Shown: positions 44,246-50,482 of the stretch, in pieces
Position numbering within the stretch: the stretch's first letter is position 1
How the letters are laid out: each line of letters starts with the position of its first letter
Source of the DNA: Candidatus Uhrbacteria bacterium
GTDB taxonomy: Bacteria > Patescibacteriota > Patescibacteriia > 2-12-FULL-60-25
Assembly (NCBI GenBank): GCA_016222815.1
Contig: JACRQE010000005.1
Span: forward strand, 1-64,000
Length of the DNA: 64,000 nucleotides
Direction: 5' to 3'
Program-made: the position numbers and the translations under genes
Notes under the pieces: model-generated
The model's input: only the letters and a program-made list of their open reading frames with translations
What the model was told of the DNA's origin: nothing
Database searches by the model: none

Positions 44246-45769
44246 ATGGAGCTGTCACGCTACTTGGAACGCGGGGAGTTCAGCGGTTTCGTGTTGGGTG
44301 CTTTCATCCTCGGAATCGCAGCGCATTCGTTTGCGCCGTTTTGGCATGCGTCGGAGGTTTGGATGGCGGTCGGTTTGGGCGGATGTGGGTTGGCGGTCGC
44401 GATGGCATATCCGAGAAAGCCACGTTTTCAGATTGCGGTGTTGATTCTCGCTGTAGCGTTAGGATTTTGGCGGTTCAATTCGAGTGTACCGCAGGCAAAC
44501 GACGGGATACTGCCGTTCATGGGGAACGGGATAGGATATGAAGGAATCGTCGAGAAGTTGAGCGTCTCGAAGACGTATTCTTCGGCTGTCGTGAAGATAA
44601 TCTCTGCGGATGACCGTAAAATCTCGGGGCCGGGTGAGAGATTGGTGATCAGATTGAAACAGACTGTAGAGGTCGGGACGGAAATCTCATTTACCTGTTC
44701 ATCCAGGAAACCAACGACATTCCCTTCCAACTTCGACCGGCGCAAATCTTTGGCGCGTAAAGGGGTTTGGGCCGAATGCACGACAATCGAGAGTCTGGCC
44801 ATATCGAAACAGCCGAGTCCGTTCGATCCGTTGGTCATTTTGGCGCGATGGCGGGAAACGCTGACGCGGCGCATTTCCGGCACATTTCCTTTGGATGAGG
44901 CGATGCTCCTTTCGGGCATCCTGTATGGTGATCAGGATTTGTCGGACGAGCAGTATGATTTGTTCCAGCGTTCCGGTCTCATGCATATCGTGGCCGTATC
45001 GGGCTCAAATGTCACGATAGTGGTCAGCGTCGTCCTCGGCTTGGTCCTGGCTTTGGGATTTTCGCGGAGGCATGCGTTTTGGTTGGCGACATTAGGCTTG
45101 TTGGTGTTCATCGGATTCGTGGGTTTCGGGGCATCGGTCCTGCGCGCCGCGGCAATGGGTTGGCTGGCGATTTTAGCTCGGTATATTGGACGACCGGTGT
45201 GGACTGACCGACTGCTCATAGTGGCAGCGGCGGTTTTAAATTTGATGAATCCTTGGCTCTTAGCTTTCGATCCGGGGTTTGCGCTGTCGTTTTTGGCGAC
45301 GTGGGGACTTTTGTCTTGGACGCCGGTTTTCCAGGAACGTTTGCGATTCATGCCGAATATTTTTTCCTTACGCGAAACATTGGCCACGACTTTGGGGGCG
45401 ACCATCATGACCGTGCCGTATCTCGCTTGGGCATTCGGGCGGATGTCTTTGGCCGGGCTGATTACGAATGCGTTGGCTTTGCCGCTTATCCCGTGGACCA
45501 TGATGTGGGGAGCGATGGCAACGGTTTGGGGAAGGTTGCCTGGCCAAGAATTCGTGAGCTGGCCGACGTTTGGTCTGTTGAGGCTGATCATCAAGATTGC
45601 GCATCTGGCGGATGTCCTGCCTTGGTTGAACCTGAAGGTGCCTTATATGGAATGGGCGGCCATGGTCGGATGTTACATCCTGTTGTGGCAGTTGTGGCGT
45701 GCGGTGAGGAGTGAAGAAAGCATGCGGAACAAAAAAGAGCCTGTGGATAGCGATGTCGAGCTCGGCTGA
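44246..45769 (+). CDS. comEC: ComEC/Rec2 family DNA-uptake channel protein
   Basis: 507 aa. N-terminal helices, an OB-like extracytoplasmic domain (about 95-185, with Cys in FTCSSRKPTTF and WAECTTIE), and the competence domain core GILYGDQDLSDEQYDLFQRSGLMHIVAVSGSNVTI, the best-conserved ComEC block, followed by about nine TM helices. It lacks the C-terminal metallo-beta-lactamase domain of longer ComEC proteins. It should pass single-stranded DNA through the membrane; with LTD surface proteins nearby, DNA scavenging is plausible. Confidence 0.92.
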   Translation: MELSRYLERGEFSGFVLGAFILGIAAHSFAPFWHASEVWMAVGLGGCGLAVAMAYPRKPRFQIAVLILAVALGFWRFNSSVPQANDGILPFMGNGIGYEGIVEKLSVSKTYSSAVVKIISADDRKISGPGERLVIRLKQTVEVGTEISFTCSSRKPTTFPSNFDRRKSLARKGVWAECTTIESLAISKQPSPFDPLVILARWRETLTRRISGTFPLDEAMLLSGILYGDQDLSDEQYDLFQRSGLMHIVAVSGSNVTIVVSVVLGLVLALGFSRRHAFWLATLGLLVFIGFVGFGASVLRAAAMGWLAILARYIGRPVWTDRLLIVAAAVLNLMNPWLLAFDPGFALSFLATWGLLSWTPVFQERLRFMPNIFSLRETLATTLGATIMTVPYLAWAFGRMSLAGLITNALALPLIPWTMMWGAMATVWGRLPGQEFVSWPTFGLLRLIIKIAHLADVLPWLNLKVPYMEWAAMVGCYILLWQLWRAVRSEESMRNKKEPVDSDVELG

Positions 45770-45870
45770 CTGTCAGTGACGGCTGACGGTCTGGAAATGG
45801 ATCATGTGAAAGCAAGAAAGGCTATATTTCATCGGGAGATTATGTTTGTCAGCGATGACTGACAGAATCT

Positions 45871-45899
45871 TTGACCGGGGCAGCTGGATTCCATAATGT
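45871..45899 (+). promoter_or_regulatory. Promoter of the 45.9-kb RNA
   Basis: TTGACC (45871-45876), 17-bp spacer, TAATGT (45894-45899): the same stable-RNA promoter form as for tRNA-Ser and tRNA-Leu. Predicted start near 45906. Confidence 0.7.
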
Positions 45900-45905
45900 G
45901 TAACT

Positions 45906-46235
45906 AAGGGTCTTCCGATCCTGCACCTAAACAACCGAAGAAGCTGGAAGCGGCGAGGCCTGGCATGCCGGGCGCGGCTAGGGAGAGTAAAGCGGCCCTA
46001 GTCCGTTCCCCAATCCGGTGCGGTGACTGGATTGGAGATGGCAAGAGCGGGGAAACAGGTCTCAAAACAAAGAGGAGAGAATACGTATGCCGAACGCGCA
46101 TCCGACGAGTCTAGAGAAATGACGGTCTTAACAACCGCGGGGGAGTCCCGCTTGTCGTACGATTCCGAGTCCGGCCTGTGCGGCCACTGTACTCGGGTCA
46201 AGATGCGGATAGTTTCCGCTTCCAGCTCCGTCGGG
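45906..46235 (+). ncRNA. Unidentified structured RNA, about 330 nt
   Basis: A gap of 480 bp without a convincing protein. A perfect 12-bp long-range stem closes it: AGCTGGAAGCGG (45942-45953) with CCGCTTCCAGCT (46216-46227). Inside are further perfect helices: CTAGGG / CCCTAG, GTTCCCC / GGGGAAAC enclosing CCAATCC / GGATTGG, CGGG / CCCG, CCGAGT / ACTCGG enclosing GGCC / GGCC, and GCGGA / TCCGC. It has a stable-RNA-type promoter. Hallmarks of RNase P RNA, tmRNA (no T-arm/CCA end) and SRP RNA were looked for and not found, so the identity is open; a divergent housekeeping RNA is the main alternative. Confidence 0.6.
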
Positions 46236-46250
46236 TAGAATTGATTAATT

Positions 46251-46856
46251 ATGAAAACCATCCGTTTGACCAATAACCACGTCATTTTCCTCGCAGCAGT
46301 GTGTGTGATCGTCGCGGCGGCCGTAGCCATCAGGCTCCTGATGGTTCAGACGCCGGATAAGACAGCTGATGTCAGGACTTCGGTTTCGACAAATACGCAG
46401 TCAACGGTAAAGATCGAGACTGCAGGATTGCCGGAACCGACGAGTGCCAGATTCGCGAGCGGCGATGCGCTCCAGGGCTTGGGTGCGAATTGGACATTCC
46501 TTAAACAAGAGGATCAGCGCATGTTGAGCATGAGCTTTGTCGCAGGCACGGCACCGGGACGCGAATCCGTGGTCCAGTTGGTAAGCAATCCGAAAGTCAG
46601 CCTGACGCTCGAGGAATCCTATATCAACGACCAGAAGAAGTTGGATGCAGCGTTAGCCGAGAAGGATGTGAAGAAGGTGACAGTGGCGAAACGCGAGGGA
46701 TATATCGTGCCCATGGGGAGTCTGGCTGGCGGCACGGCACTTGTCCTGACAGGTTCAACCACCATTTTGATAATCCAAGATACGAATACCGAGCTTTGGC
46801 CTGAAGAGCTCGACCCTGAAGTCGCGACTTACATTGCGACGGCCCGCGTTCCCTAG
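46251..46856 (+). CDS. Membrane-anchored extracytoplasmic protein, 201 aa
   Basis: Not recognised. One N-terminal TM helix (about 12-33), a Ser/Thr linker and a folded extracytoplasmic domain (FLKQEDQRMLSMSFVAG ... ALVLTGSTTILIIQDTN). The topology matches the other single-pass PsbP-like proteins in the window (38398), though the sequence relation is weak. It starts 16 bp after the structured RNA. Confidence 0.6.
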   Translation: MKTIRLTNNHVIFLAAVCVIVAAAVAIRLLMVQTPDKTADVRTSVSTNTQSTVKIETAGLPEPTSARFASGDALQGLGANWTFLKQEDQRMLSMSFVAGTAPGRESVVQLVSNPKVSLTLEESYINDQKKLDAALAEKDVKKVTVAKREGYIVPMGSLAGGTALVLTGSTTILIIQDTNTELWPEELDPEVATYIATARVP

Positions 46857-46974: not shown

Positions 46975-49248
46975 ATGTTGAACAGAATCATCTTGTTGCT
47001 CGCGATCTTGGCAATGATTTCGGGTTGTTCGTCCGACCCGGGTCCCGAAGACCCGAAGGCGGACGAGACCCAGGAGGCAATCCAGCTGGATCCGCAAACA
47101 GGCATCCCGTATGCCACGACCTACCAGTTTCCGATCCAGGGATTCAACGCCTCGGACTTCGGATTCGGGTTCGGCAGTATGAACAACCTCATCTGCATGG
47201 CCCGCGACAGTAACGGGACATGCGTCGCCTACGGCTACCATCTGGCGCATGATTCGCAGGTGGGACGCACGCCGTACGGCAAGGAAGTCCTGGCGCCGGC
47301 CGACGGCATCGTGCGCATCACGACCGACATAACGTTCCAGGGTTACGGTTCGACGAACCGCCTGAACTCGAGCTACTACGGCTGTGCAGTCGTGCTCGAA
47401 CACGAGTTTGCCAACGGCGATCGGTTCACCTCGCTCCTGGGCCACGTACAGTGCGAGTCCGTCACCGGATACGATCCGGCGGCGCGTATCGGCAACCCGG
47501 CGCGTGGCACCGTGGTACGACGTGGCCAGTATGTGGGGCATATCGGCCACTACTGGTATGGTTCGGCCAAGACGGTCGACTGGCACCATATCCATTGGGG
47601 GCTGAAAAAGGGCGCATTCTCGCCAGCGGCATACACGCGGACCGGGCTTCGGCCATGGGTGCGCGGCTATGCGGCGCGGAGCGAGTTCAGCAAGGACCCG
47701 CAGACCGGTAAGATGACGCATGCCGAATGGGTGGATCCCATCGACATCGTGAAGATGCTGGGTGATCCGGCGCTGACGCCTGATGTGGGCGTGCGCCACC
47801 ATCCGCCAGGCTCCATGCTCGAAGATGAGCAGGGTGCGTTCTGGCTGGTCACGGGTGAAGCTGTGGCAGCGAGACTGCCGACCGACGTCCTGACTGCGGA
47901 CCATTACGATACGTCGCTCGCGGCGCGGGTCTCGCAGGACGAGCTCGATTGCTACGCACATGCCTCGGACATCGCGACGCTGGGCAAGGTCACGCTCTAC
48001 AAGCGGCCAGGGTCCAACACGGTGGTCATGGCTTATGACGACCGCAAGGAACGCTATGACGTCATACGGCAAGAGGCGTTGTATTCCTGGGGGTACAACT
48101 TCCAGGGTTTGACCACGGACGCGGCCAAGATCCAGAAATGCGAAACGACGTATACGCCGCGCGGGTATCGGCTTCTTCGGCCGGGAACATTGGTCAAAGC
48201 CGACGAGGAGAGCGAGGTCTCGATCGTGACACCGTGGCAGACGCGGCGGGCGATCGGGACGGGCGAGATCTTCGAGAAGCTGGGCTACAACTGGGACCGC
48301 GTCATGTCCGTACCGTATGACGTCATCAGTTCGGTCGCAGGCGTGCGCGAAGCAGTGATCGTGGATTACGATTCGATCTTCGCATGCGCTTTGCCGGCGC
48401 CGTGCCCCTCGGAAGGGACGTGCGGCGGCGGTGATGATCCGGAGGATTACGACGATGGGACCGACGACCCGGAAGCAGGTAGCGAGCCTGAAGCAAACAA
48501 CGGTCAGGTACAGACAGATGCGGGAGTGCAGCCGGAAACCGCGCCTGCCGCCGAAACCTGCAACGGCCTGGATGACGACGGCAACGGCTTGATTGACGAA
48601 ATCTTCTTGTGCAGGCTGGGTGCGACGGATGGCCCGCCTTGCGTCTCTTCTTGCGGAAGCGTGGGGCAACAAGTGTGCGATGCCCCGACCTGCTCATGGG
48701 GGACCTGCAGACCCAAAGCAGAGAACTGCGCCAACACCATCGACGACGACTGTAACGGTCTGGTCGATTGCGCAGATCCGGTTTGCCAGGGGACGGTAGA
48801 ATGCCAGCCCGAACCTGATGCCGGGCAATCGGATGGCGGAACGCCGGAAGCATCGACTCCTGAAGCAGGGAACGGCATGAGCCTTCTGCGCCTCATCTAC
48901 AACGGTCCAGCCGCGCCGGGTGCGATCAAGCTCTTTGCTTGGTGGCAGCCGCCAAGCGGTCCGGCCAGGAGCTGGGCGCAGGTAACCGAATGCGTCGATA
49001 CCCTTCTGGGGGATGGCAAGCTCGATTGCGTCTTCAGCGTCCAGTCCGGAACCTCACCCCTCGAGTTCCAGATCAACTTGCCCGATGGCCGGTTCTGGGG
49101 AGACCAGAATTGTTCGAGCGGCGGCTGCGGTTCGACGGTCGGGACAGTAAGCCTGGACGGACCGAACGGGCCGCTCACGGTCACGCTCGTGCCCAACAAC
49201 CCGAACGGCCAGCCATATTTCAACGGGCATGTGCAAAACGTGCCATAA
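46975..49248 (+). CDS. Lipoprotein with M23-like peptidase domain and MopE-type motifs
   Basis: 757 aa with AAGGAG upstream. Signal peptide and lipobox MISGC (Cys 18). An M23 (LytM-like) domain spans about residues 45-215: YHLAHDSQVGRTPYGKEVLAPADG, LLGHVQCE and the zinc HxH in DWHHIHWGL. The middle (about 290-470) is a repeat-containing unknown region. The C-terminal part has acidic metal-binding-type motifs CNGLDDDGNGLIDE and CANTIDDDCNGLVDC plus a Pro/Glu linker, ending in a beta-rich domain. Likely a surface-anchored peptidoglycan hydrolase. The MopE motifs link it to the Cys-rich lipoprotein at 23.1 kb. Confidence 0.8.
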   Translation: MLNRIILLLAILAMISGCSSDPGPEDPKADETQEAIQLDPQTGIPYATTYQFPIQGFNASDFGFGFGSMNNLICMARDSNGTCVAYGYHLAHDSQVGRTPYGKEVLAPADGIVRITTDITFQGYGSTNRLNSSYYGCAVVLEHEFANGDRFTSLLGHVQCESVTGYDPAARIGNPARGTVVRRGQYVGHIGHYWYGSAKTVDWHHIHWGLKKGAFSPAAYTRTGLRPWVRGYAARSEFSKDPQTGKMTHAEWVDPIDIVKMLGDPALTPDVGVRHHPPGSMLEDEQGAFWLVTGEAVAARLPTDVLTADHYDTSLAARVSQDELDCYAHASDIATLGKVTLYKRPGSNTVVMAYDDRKERYDVIRQEALYSWGYNFQGLTTDAAKIQKCETTYTPRGYRLLRPGTLVKADEESEVSIVTPWQTRRAIGTGEIFEKLGYNWDRVMSVPYDVISSVAGVREAVIVDYDSIFACALPAPCPSEGTCGGGDDPEDYDDGTDDPEAGSEPEANNGQVQTDAGVQPETAPAAETCNGLDDDGNGLIDEIFLCRLGATDGPPCVSSCGSVGQQVCDAPTCSWGTCRPKAENCANTIDDDCNGLVDCADPVCQGTVECQPEPDAGQSDGGTPEASTPEAGNGMSLLRLIYNGPAAPGAIKLFAWWQPPSGPARSWAQVTECVDTLLGDGKLDCVFSVQSGTSPLEFQINLPDGRFWGDQNCSSGGCGSTVGTVSLDGPNGPLTVTLVPNNPNGQPYFNGHVQNVP

Positions 49249-49387: not shown

Positions 49388-50482
49388 ATGGCGAAAAAAG
49401 TCACTGACGAACGGGATGAGCGGCGGTTGGCGGCTCAAGAGGCGATAGACCAGATTAAGGAACGGTTCGGCGAGGGGAGCATTATGCGGTTGGGCGAGGC
49501 CAAGAAGATGATCGTGGATACGGTGCCGACCGGCTGCCTATCACTCGATTTAGCCTTGGGTGTTTTGGGCGTGCCGCGCGGACGCGTCATCGAGATTTTT
49601 GGCCCTGAAGCATCGGGCAAGACGACTTTGGCCCAGCACATCATCGCCGAAGTGCAGAAACTCGGCGGCATCGCGGCTTTCGTGGATGCGGAACATGCTC
49701 TGGATCCGGATTATGCACGTAAGATAGGCGTGAATGTGGACGAGCTCCTCATTTCACAGCCGGATACGGGCGAGCAGGCTTTGGATATCGTGGAAACGCT
49801 GGTCCGTTCCAATGCCGTGGATGTGGTGGTGGTGGACTCGGTAGCTGCGCTGACGCCGAAAGCAGAAATCGAAGGCGAGATGGGCGAATCGCATATGGGC
49901 TTGCAGGCGCGGCTCATGAGTCAAGCTTTGCGCAAGCTCACGAGCATCGTGTCCAAGACCAAGACGGTGGTCATATTCATCAACCAGATTCGCCAGAAGA
50001 TTGGCGTCGTGTTCGGCAACCCGGAGACGACCACCGGCGGCGTGGCGCTCAAGTTCTATTCATCGGTACGCATCGAAGTTCGACGTTCGGCGCAGATAAA
50101 GATGGGGGAGAGGATTTTGGGCAATCGGACCAAGGTCAAGATCGTGAAGAACAAGATGGCGGCGCCGTTCCGCACCTGCGAGTTCGATATCATGTACAAC
50201 GAGGGCATCTCGATACCCGGGGACTTGCTCGACCTGGCGTCCGAGTACGAAGTCATCAAGAAGAACGGAAATTCATACACATACGGAACCGAGAAGCTGG
50301 GTATCGGGCGCGAGAATGCCAAGCTCGGCTTGCGCGAACGGCCGCAGATCCACAAGGAAATCCGCGATAGGGTCATCGCGCTTTGGAAAGAGAAGGAGCT
50401 GGCTGAGAATGGGCCGGCCATCAAAGCTCCGGCTGCACCAGAAGGATCGGACGACGAGCTGCCGCCGCCGGAAGAGGTGTAA
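49388..50482 (+). CDS. recA: RecA recombinase
   Basis: 364 aa, full length. Walker [10 protein letters not shown] (about 72-80), Walker [12 protein letters not shown]1/L2 regions ([20 protein letters not shown], then [20 protein letters not shown]) and a C-terminal acidic tail ([12 protein letters not shown]). It forms the filament for strand exchange and LexA cleavage. An SOS box directly upstream indicates LexA control. Monocistronic, with a terminator. Confidence 0.99.

Follow-up and report, generated by a model that had tools for sequence, protein, structure and literature searches.

What kind of gene occupies the gap downstream of comEC in this genome of Candidatus Uhrbacteria (Patescibacteria)? 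A large part of bacterial diversity falls within the Patescibacteria, whose genomes are reduced, and the genome studied here (G000) is 1.3 Mb in size and 98% complete. For the window, i.e. the whole stretch of 64,000 nt that was analysed, a preliminary description made from the letters alone had assigned the gap to a structured RNA with a stable-RNA promoter, regarded as either a housekeeping RNA that has diverged strongly or a new class of RNA. The RNA gene is sited on the + strand between comEC and a gene for a 201-aa protein, with recA further downstream (Table 1).

Table 1. Features of the RNA gene and its surroundings, with positions in the window
Feature	Position	Strand	Remarks
comEC	44246..45769	+	constant upstream neighbour; Pfam Competence 9.7e-46
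Inverted repeat TGTTTGTCAGCGATGACTGACA	45843..45864	.	directly 5′ of the promoter
-35 box TTGACC	45871..45876	+	distance to the leader conserved in most of the family
-10 box TAATGT	45894..45899	+	17-nt spacing; inferred transcription start near 45906
RNA	45906..46234	+	~330 nt; ends inferred from promoter and closing helix; R2 match 45906-46038, E 3.9e-25
5′ hairpin HP0, GGGUC(UUCC)GAUCC	45908..45921	+	double-sided changes in 5/5 pairs; 69.6% of cells paired (23 sequences)
Leader motif GCACCUAAACAA	45923..45934	+	family consensus G[C/U]ACCUCGACAA; predicted single-stranded
P1 5′ strand	45940..45953	+	closing helix; 12 perfect pairs counted from 45942; covaries between genera
P2 5′ strand	45970..45975	+	P2: 88.4% of cells paired
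P3 5′ strand	45978..45983	+	P3: 98.6% of cells paired; double-sided changes in 6/6 pairs
P3 apical loop AGAGUAAAGCGG	45984..45995	+	12 nt, strongly conserved
P3 3′ strand	45996..46001	+	covariation count on alignment A5
P2 3′ strand	46005..46010	+	covariation count on alignment A5
P4 hairpin	46011..46034	+	94.6% of cells paired; invariant G-U beside closing G-C
P4 loop UGCGGUGA	46019-46026	+	conserved; family form UNNGGCRA
Variable 3′ domain	46036..46215	+	size and fold differ between genera
P1 3′ strand (P1′)	46216..46229	+	pairs with P1 5′ strand
-10-like TAGAAT	46236..46241	+	just before ATG 46251 of the 201-aa gene
201-aa protein gene, ATG 46251	46251..46856	+	N-terminus weakly pilin-like; in some relatives only
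757-aa putative lipoprotein gene	46975..49248	+	no Pfam match; between the RNA and recA
recA	49388..50482	+	downstream neighbour

The preliminary description had started the RNA at 45871. This position belongs to the -35 box, and the RNA itself therefore starts near 45906, ~35 nt further 3′. Across the family, the promoter is conserved in sequence and, in most members, in its spacing of 16-17 nt. It had been likened to the promoters of the tRNA genes, which holds for tRNA-Leu in the window (TTGACC-17-TAACGT, compared with TTGACC-17-TAATGT here), whereas tRNA-Ser and tRNA-Gly lack a clear site of this form; 'stable-RNA promoter' is thus a fair label with respect to one of the three tRNA genes. 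In place of the inverted repeat that precedes the promoter, two sister species (L013 and L012) carry a perfect palindrome (TGTTTGTCAGCGCTGACAAACA), and other genera have a hairpin and a T-run at this position, resembling a comEC terminator. The inverted repeat may be either an operator or a derivative of the comEC terminator. A repeated regulatory palindrome was rejected, since even with three mismatches allowed the window contains a single match.

By BLAST, the RNA was recovered from three more species of the window's genus and from one further genus. A covariance model of 70 positions containing P2-P4 only (R1) matched in 18 of the 41 genomes of the family. An unfiltered search downstream of comEC, followed by a model to which the leader and the 5′ hairpin were added (R2), brought the count to 25. 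By covariance models and comEC synteny, the RNA is found in 12 of the family's 21 genera, and three further genomes are borderline (G029, E 2.5e-4; G014, 0.005; G027, 0.07). All copies examined directly follow comEC and share its strand, and both models gave a single match per genome. This fixed synteny could stem from slow rearrangement. Outside the family of the window, no relative was found in the sampled genomes of the class (381) or the phylum (380).

From 5′ to 3′, the elements are the promoter, HP0, the leader, P1, a spacer, P2 around P3, P4, the variable 3′ domain and P1′. The leader (GCACCUCGACAA) is conserved, as are the 5′ hairpin, the promoter and the 12-nt loop of P3 (AGnGUAAAGCGG). 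Leader and P1′ included, the domain spans 268 to ~486 nt across relatives, the largest values (genus g4) being less certain. The transcript folds at -134.4 kcal/mol with z = -2.2, and the interval 45930-46240 has z = -3.15. Since z is only -2.2 to -3.2, folding alone is modest evidence for a structured RNA, and the real proof is comparative.

For this comparison, 23 relatives were placed in a sequence-based MAFFT alignment (A5). In the four helices HP0 and P2-P4, 89% of cells were paired and double-sided changes occurred in 20 of the 25 pairs. Double-sided cells numbered 121, compared with 37.7 after shuffling and no more than 33 with the partners slid, and the covariation score was 0.60 versus 0.24. 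As R1 contained P2-P4, the covariation counts of these helices lean somewhat towards structure. HP0 and P1 were absent from R1, the model that first found the relatives, and P1 was sought afterwards. Counted from the first position of the leader motif, the best P1 helix begins 11-21 nt further on; it comprises 9-17 pairs, with letters that are unrelated between genera (e.g. GAAGCUGGAAGCGG, GCAACAGACUCGGAACG and AAGUGCAGGUAUAACA). When compared with shuffled and genus-swapped 3′ regions, P1 was below 0.05 in 19 of the 27 genomes tested (combined p ~1e-15); it was not found in G022, G007, G014 or G027.

Covarying helices (HP0, P1 and P2-P4) are thus found in related genomes, and the perfect 12-bp helix proposed for 45942-45953 and 46216-46227 is present as part of P1. 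The nested helices of the preliminary description fared unequally, because HP0, P1, P2, P3 and P4 are conserved whereas the predicted helices of the 3′ half (46036-46215) vary across genera. Two additional pairings were rejected in a swap control. A pseudoknot of the P4 loop with downstream sequence (CGGC/GCCG in the window's genus) did no better than genus-swapped partners (p 0.90), and the same was true of an extension of P1 in which the leader would pair with the 3′ flank (p 0.61).

These comparisons bear directly on whether the gap could encode a protein, or whether GC-rich sequence simply folds at random. A 71-aa frame at 46023-46238 and a fold z-score of only -2 to -3 would suit such accounts; however, the indels between homologues in sister species have lengths not divisible by three and break the frame, and base-pair covariation refutes both. 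Either account can hardly be entertained, in agreement with the earlier view that the gap holds no credible protein. That the RNA is a known housekeeping RNA in strongly diverged form (RNase P RNA, tmRNA, SRP RNA or 6S RNA) is also improbable, even though the size, promoter and single copy would fit and SRP RNA was not found in the host genome. Rfam, scanned up to E = 10, gives no match to the region, save for a chance human lncRNA hit outside it, and a scan of 17 relatives (E up to 3) gave one chance sub-threshold match, outside the RNA. The hallmarks of RNase P RNA, tmRNA and SRP RNA had been reported as missing, and indeed no such model matches the region. RNase P RNA (RF00010) has a canonical copy on contig C6 (161 bits), and its likeness to the RNA described here lies in size class, a long closing P1 and single copy. 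tmRNA (RF00023) likewise has a canonical copy elsewhere, on contig C8 (98.7 bits), and ARAGORN made no call at the region. No 6S model matched the region or the 17 relatives; 6S RNA is a rod with a central bubble mimicking an open promoter, whereas the RNA here has a branched core.

SRP RNA was a tempting identity in a genome with no detected SRP RNA. The region gave no covariance-model match and has no S domain, and the P3 stretch GGGGAGGUAAAGCGGCCC that presumably recalls the Alu-domain sequence of Bacillus SRP RNA is taken as a lead only. Small SRP RNA (RF00169) was found in none of 115 sampled genomes of the class and large SRP RNA (RF01854) in none of the 41 family genomes. The Ffh M-domain was detected in 0 of 57 class genomes, compared with 14 of 14 controls, and an E. 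coli Ffh query had no match among the ORFs of G000. SRP RNA was therefore rejected, because Ffh was not found across the sampled class genomes either and the absence of SRP in Parcubacteria has already been published (PMC4508563). As a separate observation, the absence of SRP RNA and Ffh here extends that report to a wider sample. Short colinear look-alikes of the 23S rRNA peptidyl-transferase region (GCACCUCGA, UAAAGCGG and GGUACG..CUG) occur in the leader, the P3 loop and P4. Descent from that region was rejected, as the likeness was at chance level by local alignment, a genome profile HMM and a colinear three-motif scan.

A ribozyme or the remnant of a mobile element is less probable still. 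The compact covarying core with invariant positions might be expected of one, but each genome has a single copy, always at the same site and with no protein of an intron or transposon next to it, and neither group I/II nor other ribozyme models match. A mobile or viral origin also gained nothing from viral contigs, in which the single pattern tried gave no match. Of the two options in the preliminary description, a divergent housekeeping RNA or a new class, it is the latter that gains support: covarying helices with no Rfam match, RNase P RNA and tmRNA encoded elsewhere and a genome with no SRP RNA or Ffh found together point to a new, lineage-specific RNA class. As a family defined by sequence and structure, the RNA has no kin in Rfam and occurs in a single bacterial family, which makes it new as an RNA class. 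A fold of ~300-450 nt has been kept in at least 12 genera while its letters turn over, which implies that it is strongly selected for a role not accounted for by any known RNA family.

OLE, ROOL, GOLLD and raiA RNA are several hundred nt long, covary strongly and mostly have stand-alone genes, and their functions are unknown or partly known. Structures of OLE, ROOL and GOLLD have been described (PMC12286853). The RNA reported here shares size class and strong covariation with these four RNAs, and differs in having no Rfam match, in being confined to one family of Patescibacteria and in its own architecture, HP0 - leader - P1[P2-P3, P4, variable domain]. No earlier description of it was found in the open-access papers searched. 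In kind, it belongs with the orphan structured RNAs, and it may yet turn out to serve a familiar function.

Whether such an RNA works on its own or as part of the next mRNA depends on what lies downstream. A cis-acting element in the 5′ UTR of the next gene (201-aa protein or lipoprotein), i.e. a large riboswitch or thermosensor with P1 as the switching helix, is possible and in our judgement the less probable reading. In its favour, the end of P1′ is close to the next start codon (23-61 nt in most genomes measured), no intrinsic terminator was found after P1′, and a multi-branched fold closed by P1 suits an aptamer. Furthermore, the large genus g14 has SD-like sequences ahead of the next start, within a possible regulatory hairpin, and no evident promoter there. 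However, by eye, a -10-like box precedes the ATG of the 201-aa-type gene by 7-15 nt in nine genomes; in the window, this box (TAGAAT) appears to be the gene's own promoter, probably of the leaderless type. Genome-wide, TAnnnT boxes at 966 starts of G000 peak at -12 (51) and -15 (42) over a background of ~11, and so leaderless transcripts are probably common in this genome. Moreover, the gene downstream of the RNA is not constant and varies by genus between the 201-aa gene and the lipoprotein gene, and no terminator or anti-SD arrangement is conserved across genera. Genome G022 keeps the core and the 5′ hairpin between comEC and recA in the absence of both intervening genes; it has a degenerate leader, and the search for P1 gave nothing (p 0.98). 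Because of G022 and the apparent own promoter of the downstream gene, we favour a stand-alone, trans-acting RNA over a 5′ UTR switch. On balance, the RNA probably represents a family not described before, a structural RNA that is transcribed constitutively and most likely acts in trans.

As a stand-alone RNA, it would be transcribed alone from the TTGACC promoter, and P1 would close a branched domain of ~270-450 nt. This domain would fix the loops of P3 (AGnGUAAAGCGG) and P4 in position next to the single-stranded leader (GCACCUCGACAA). The leader and both loops are conserved and predicted to be unpaired, and together they may form the binding site for a partner, either protein or RNA, in the manner of other RNA scaffolds, with the variable 3′ domain as a tolerant extension. 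A more specific role is a doubtful guess: a lineage-specific housekeeping RNA of Uhrbacteria with a ribonucleoprotein that would serve some basic process, be it that of the ribosome, RNA polymerase, SRP-less protein targeting, or DNA uptake and recombination (next to comEC and recA). The alignment, the covariance models and the promoter are direct handles for further work on this RNA.

Some further features were seen in the sequence that follows P1′. The 757-aa putative lipoprotein contains the repeats ETCNGLDDDGNGLIDE and NTIDDDCNGLVDCADPVC. In genus g14 (L043, L044, L046 and L173), P1′ is followed by a conserved CUCCUCUACGACGCGUAUUGGAGG with an SD-like GGAGG before the next start codon. A second covarying hairpin with the loop [A/G]AUGCAUA was noticed by eye ~25-65 nt past P1′ in L025, L026, L027 and L032 (genera g2, g4 and g18).
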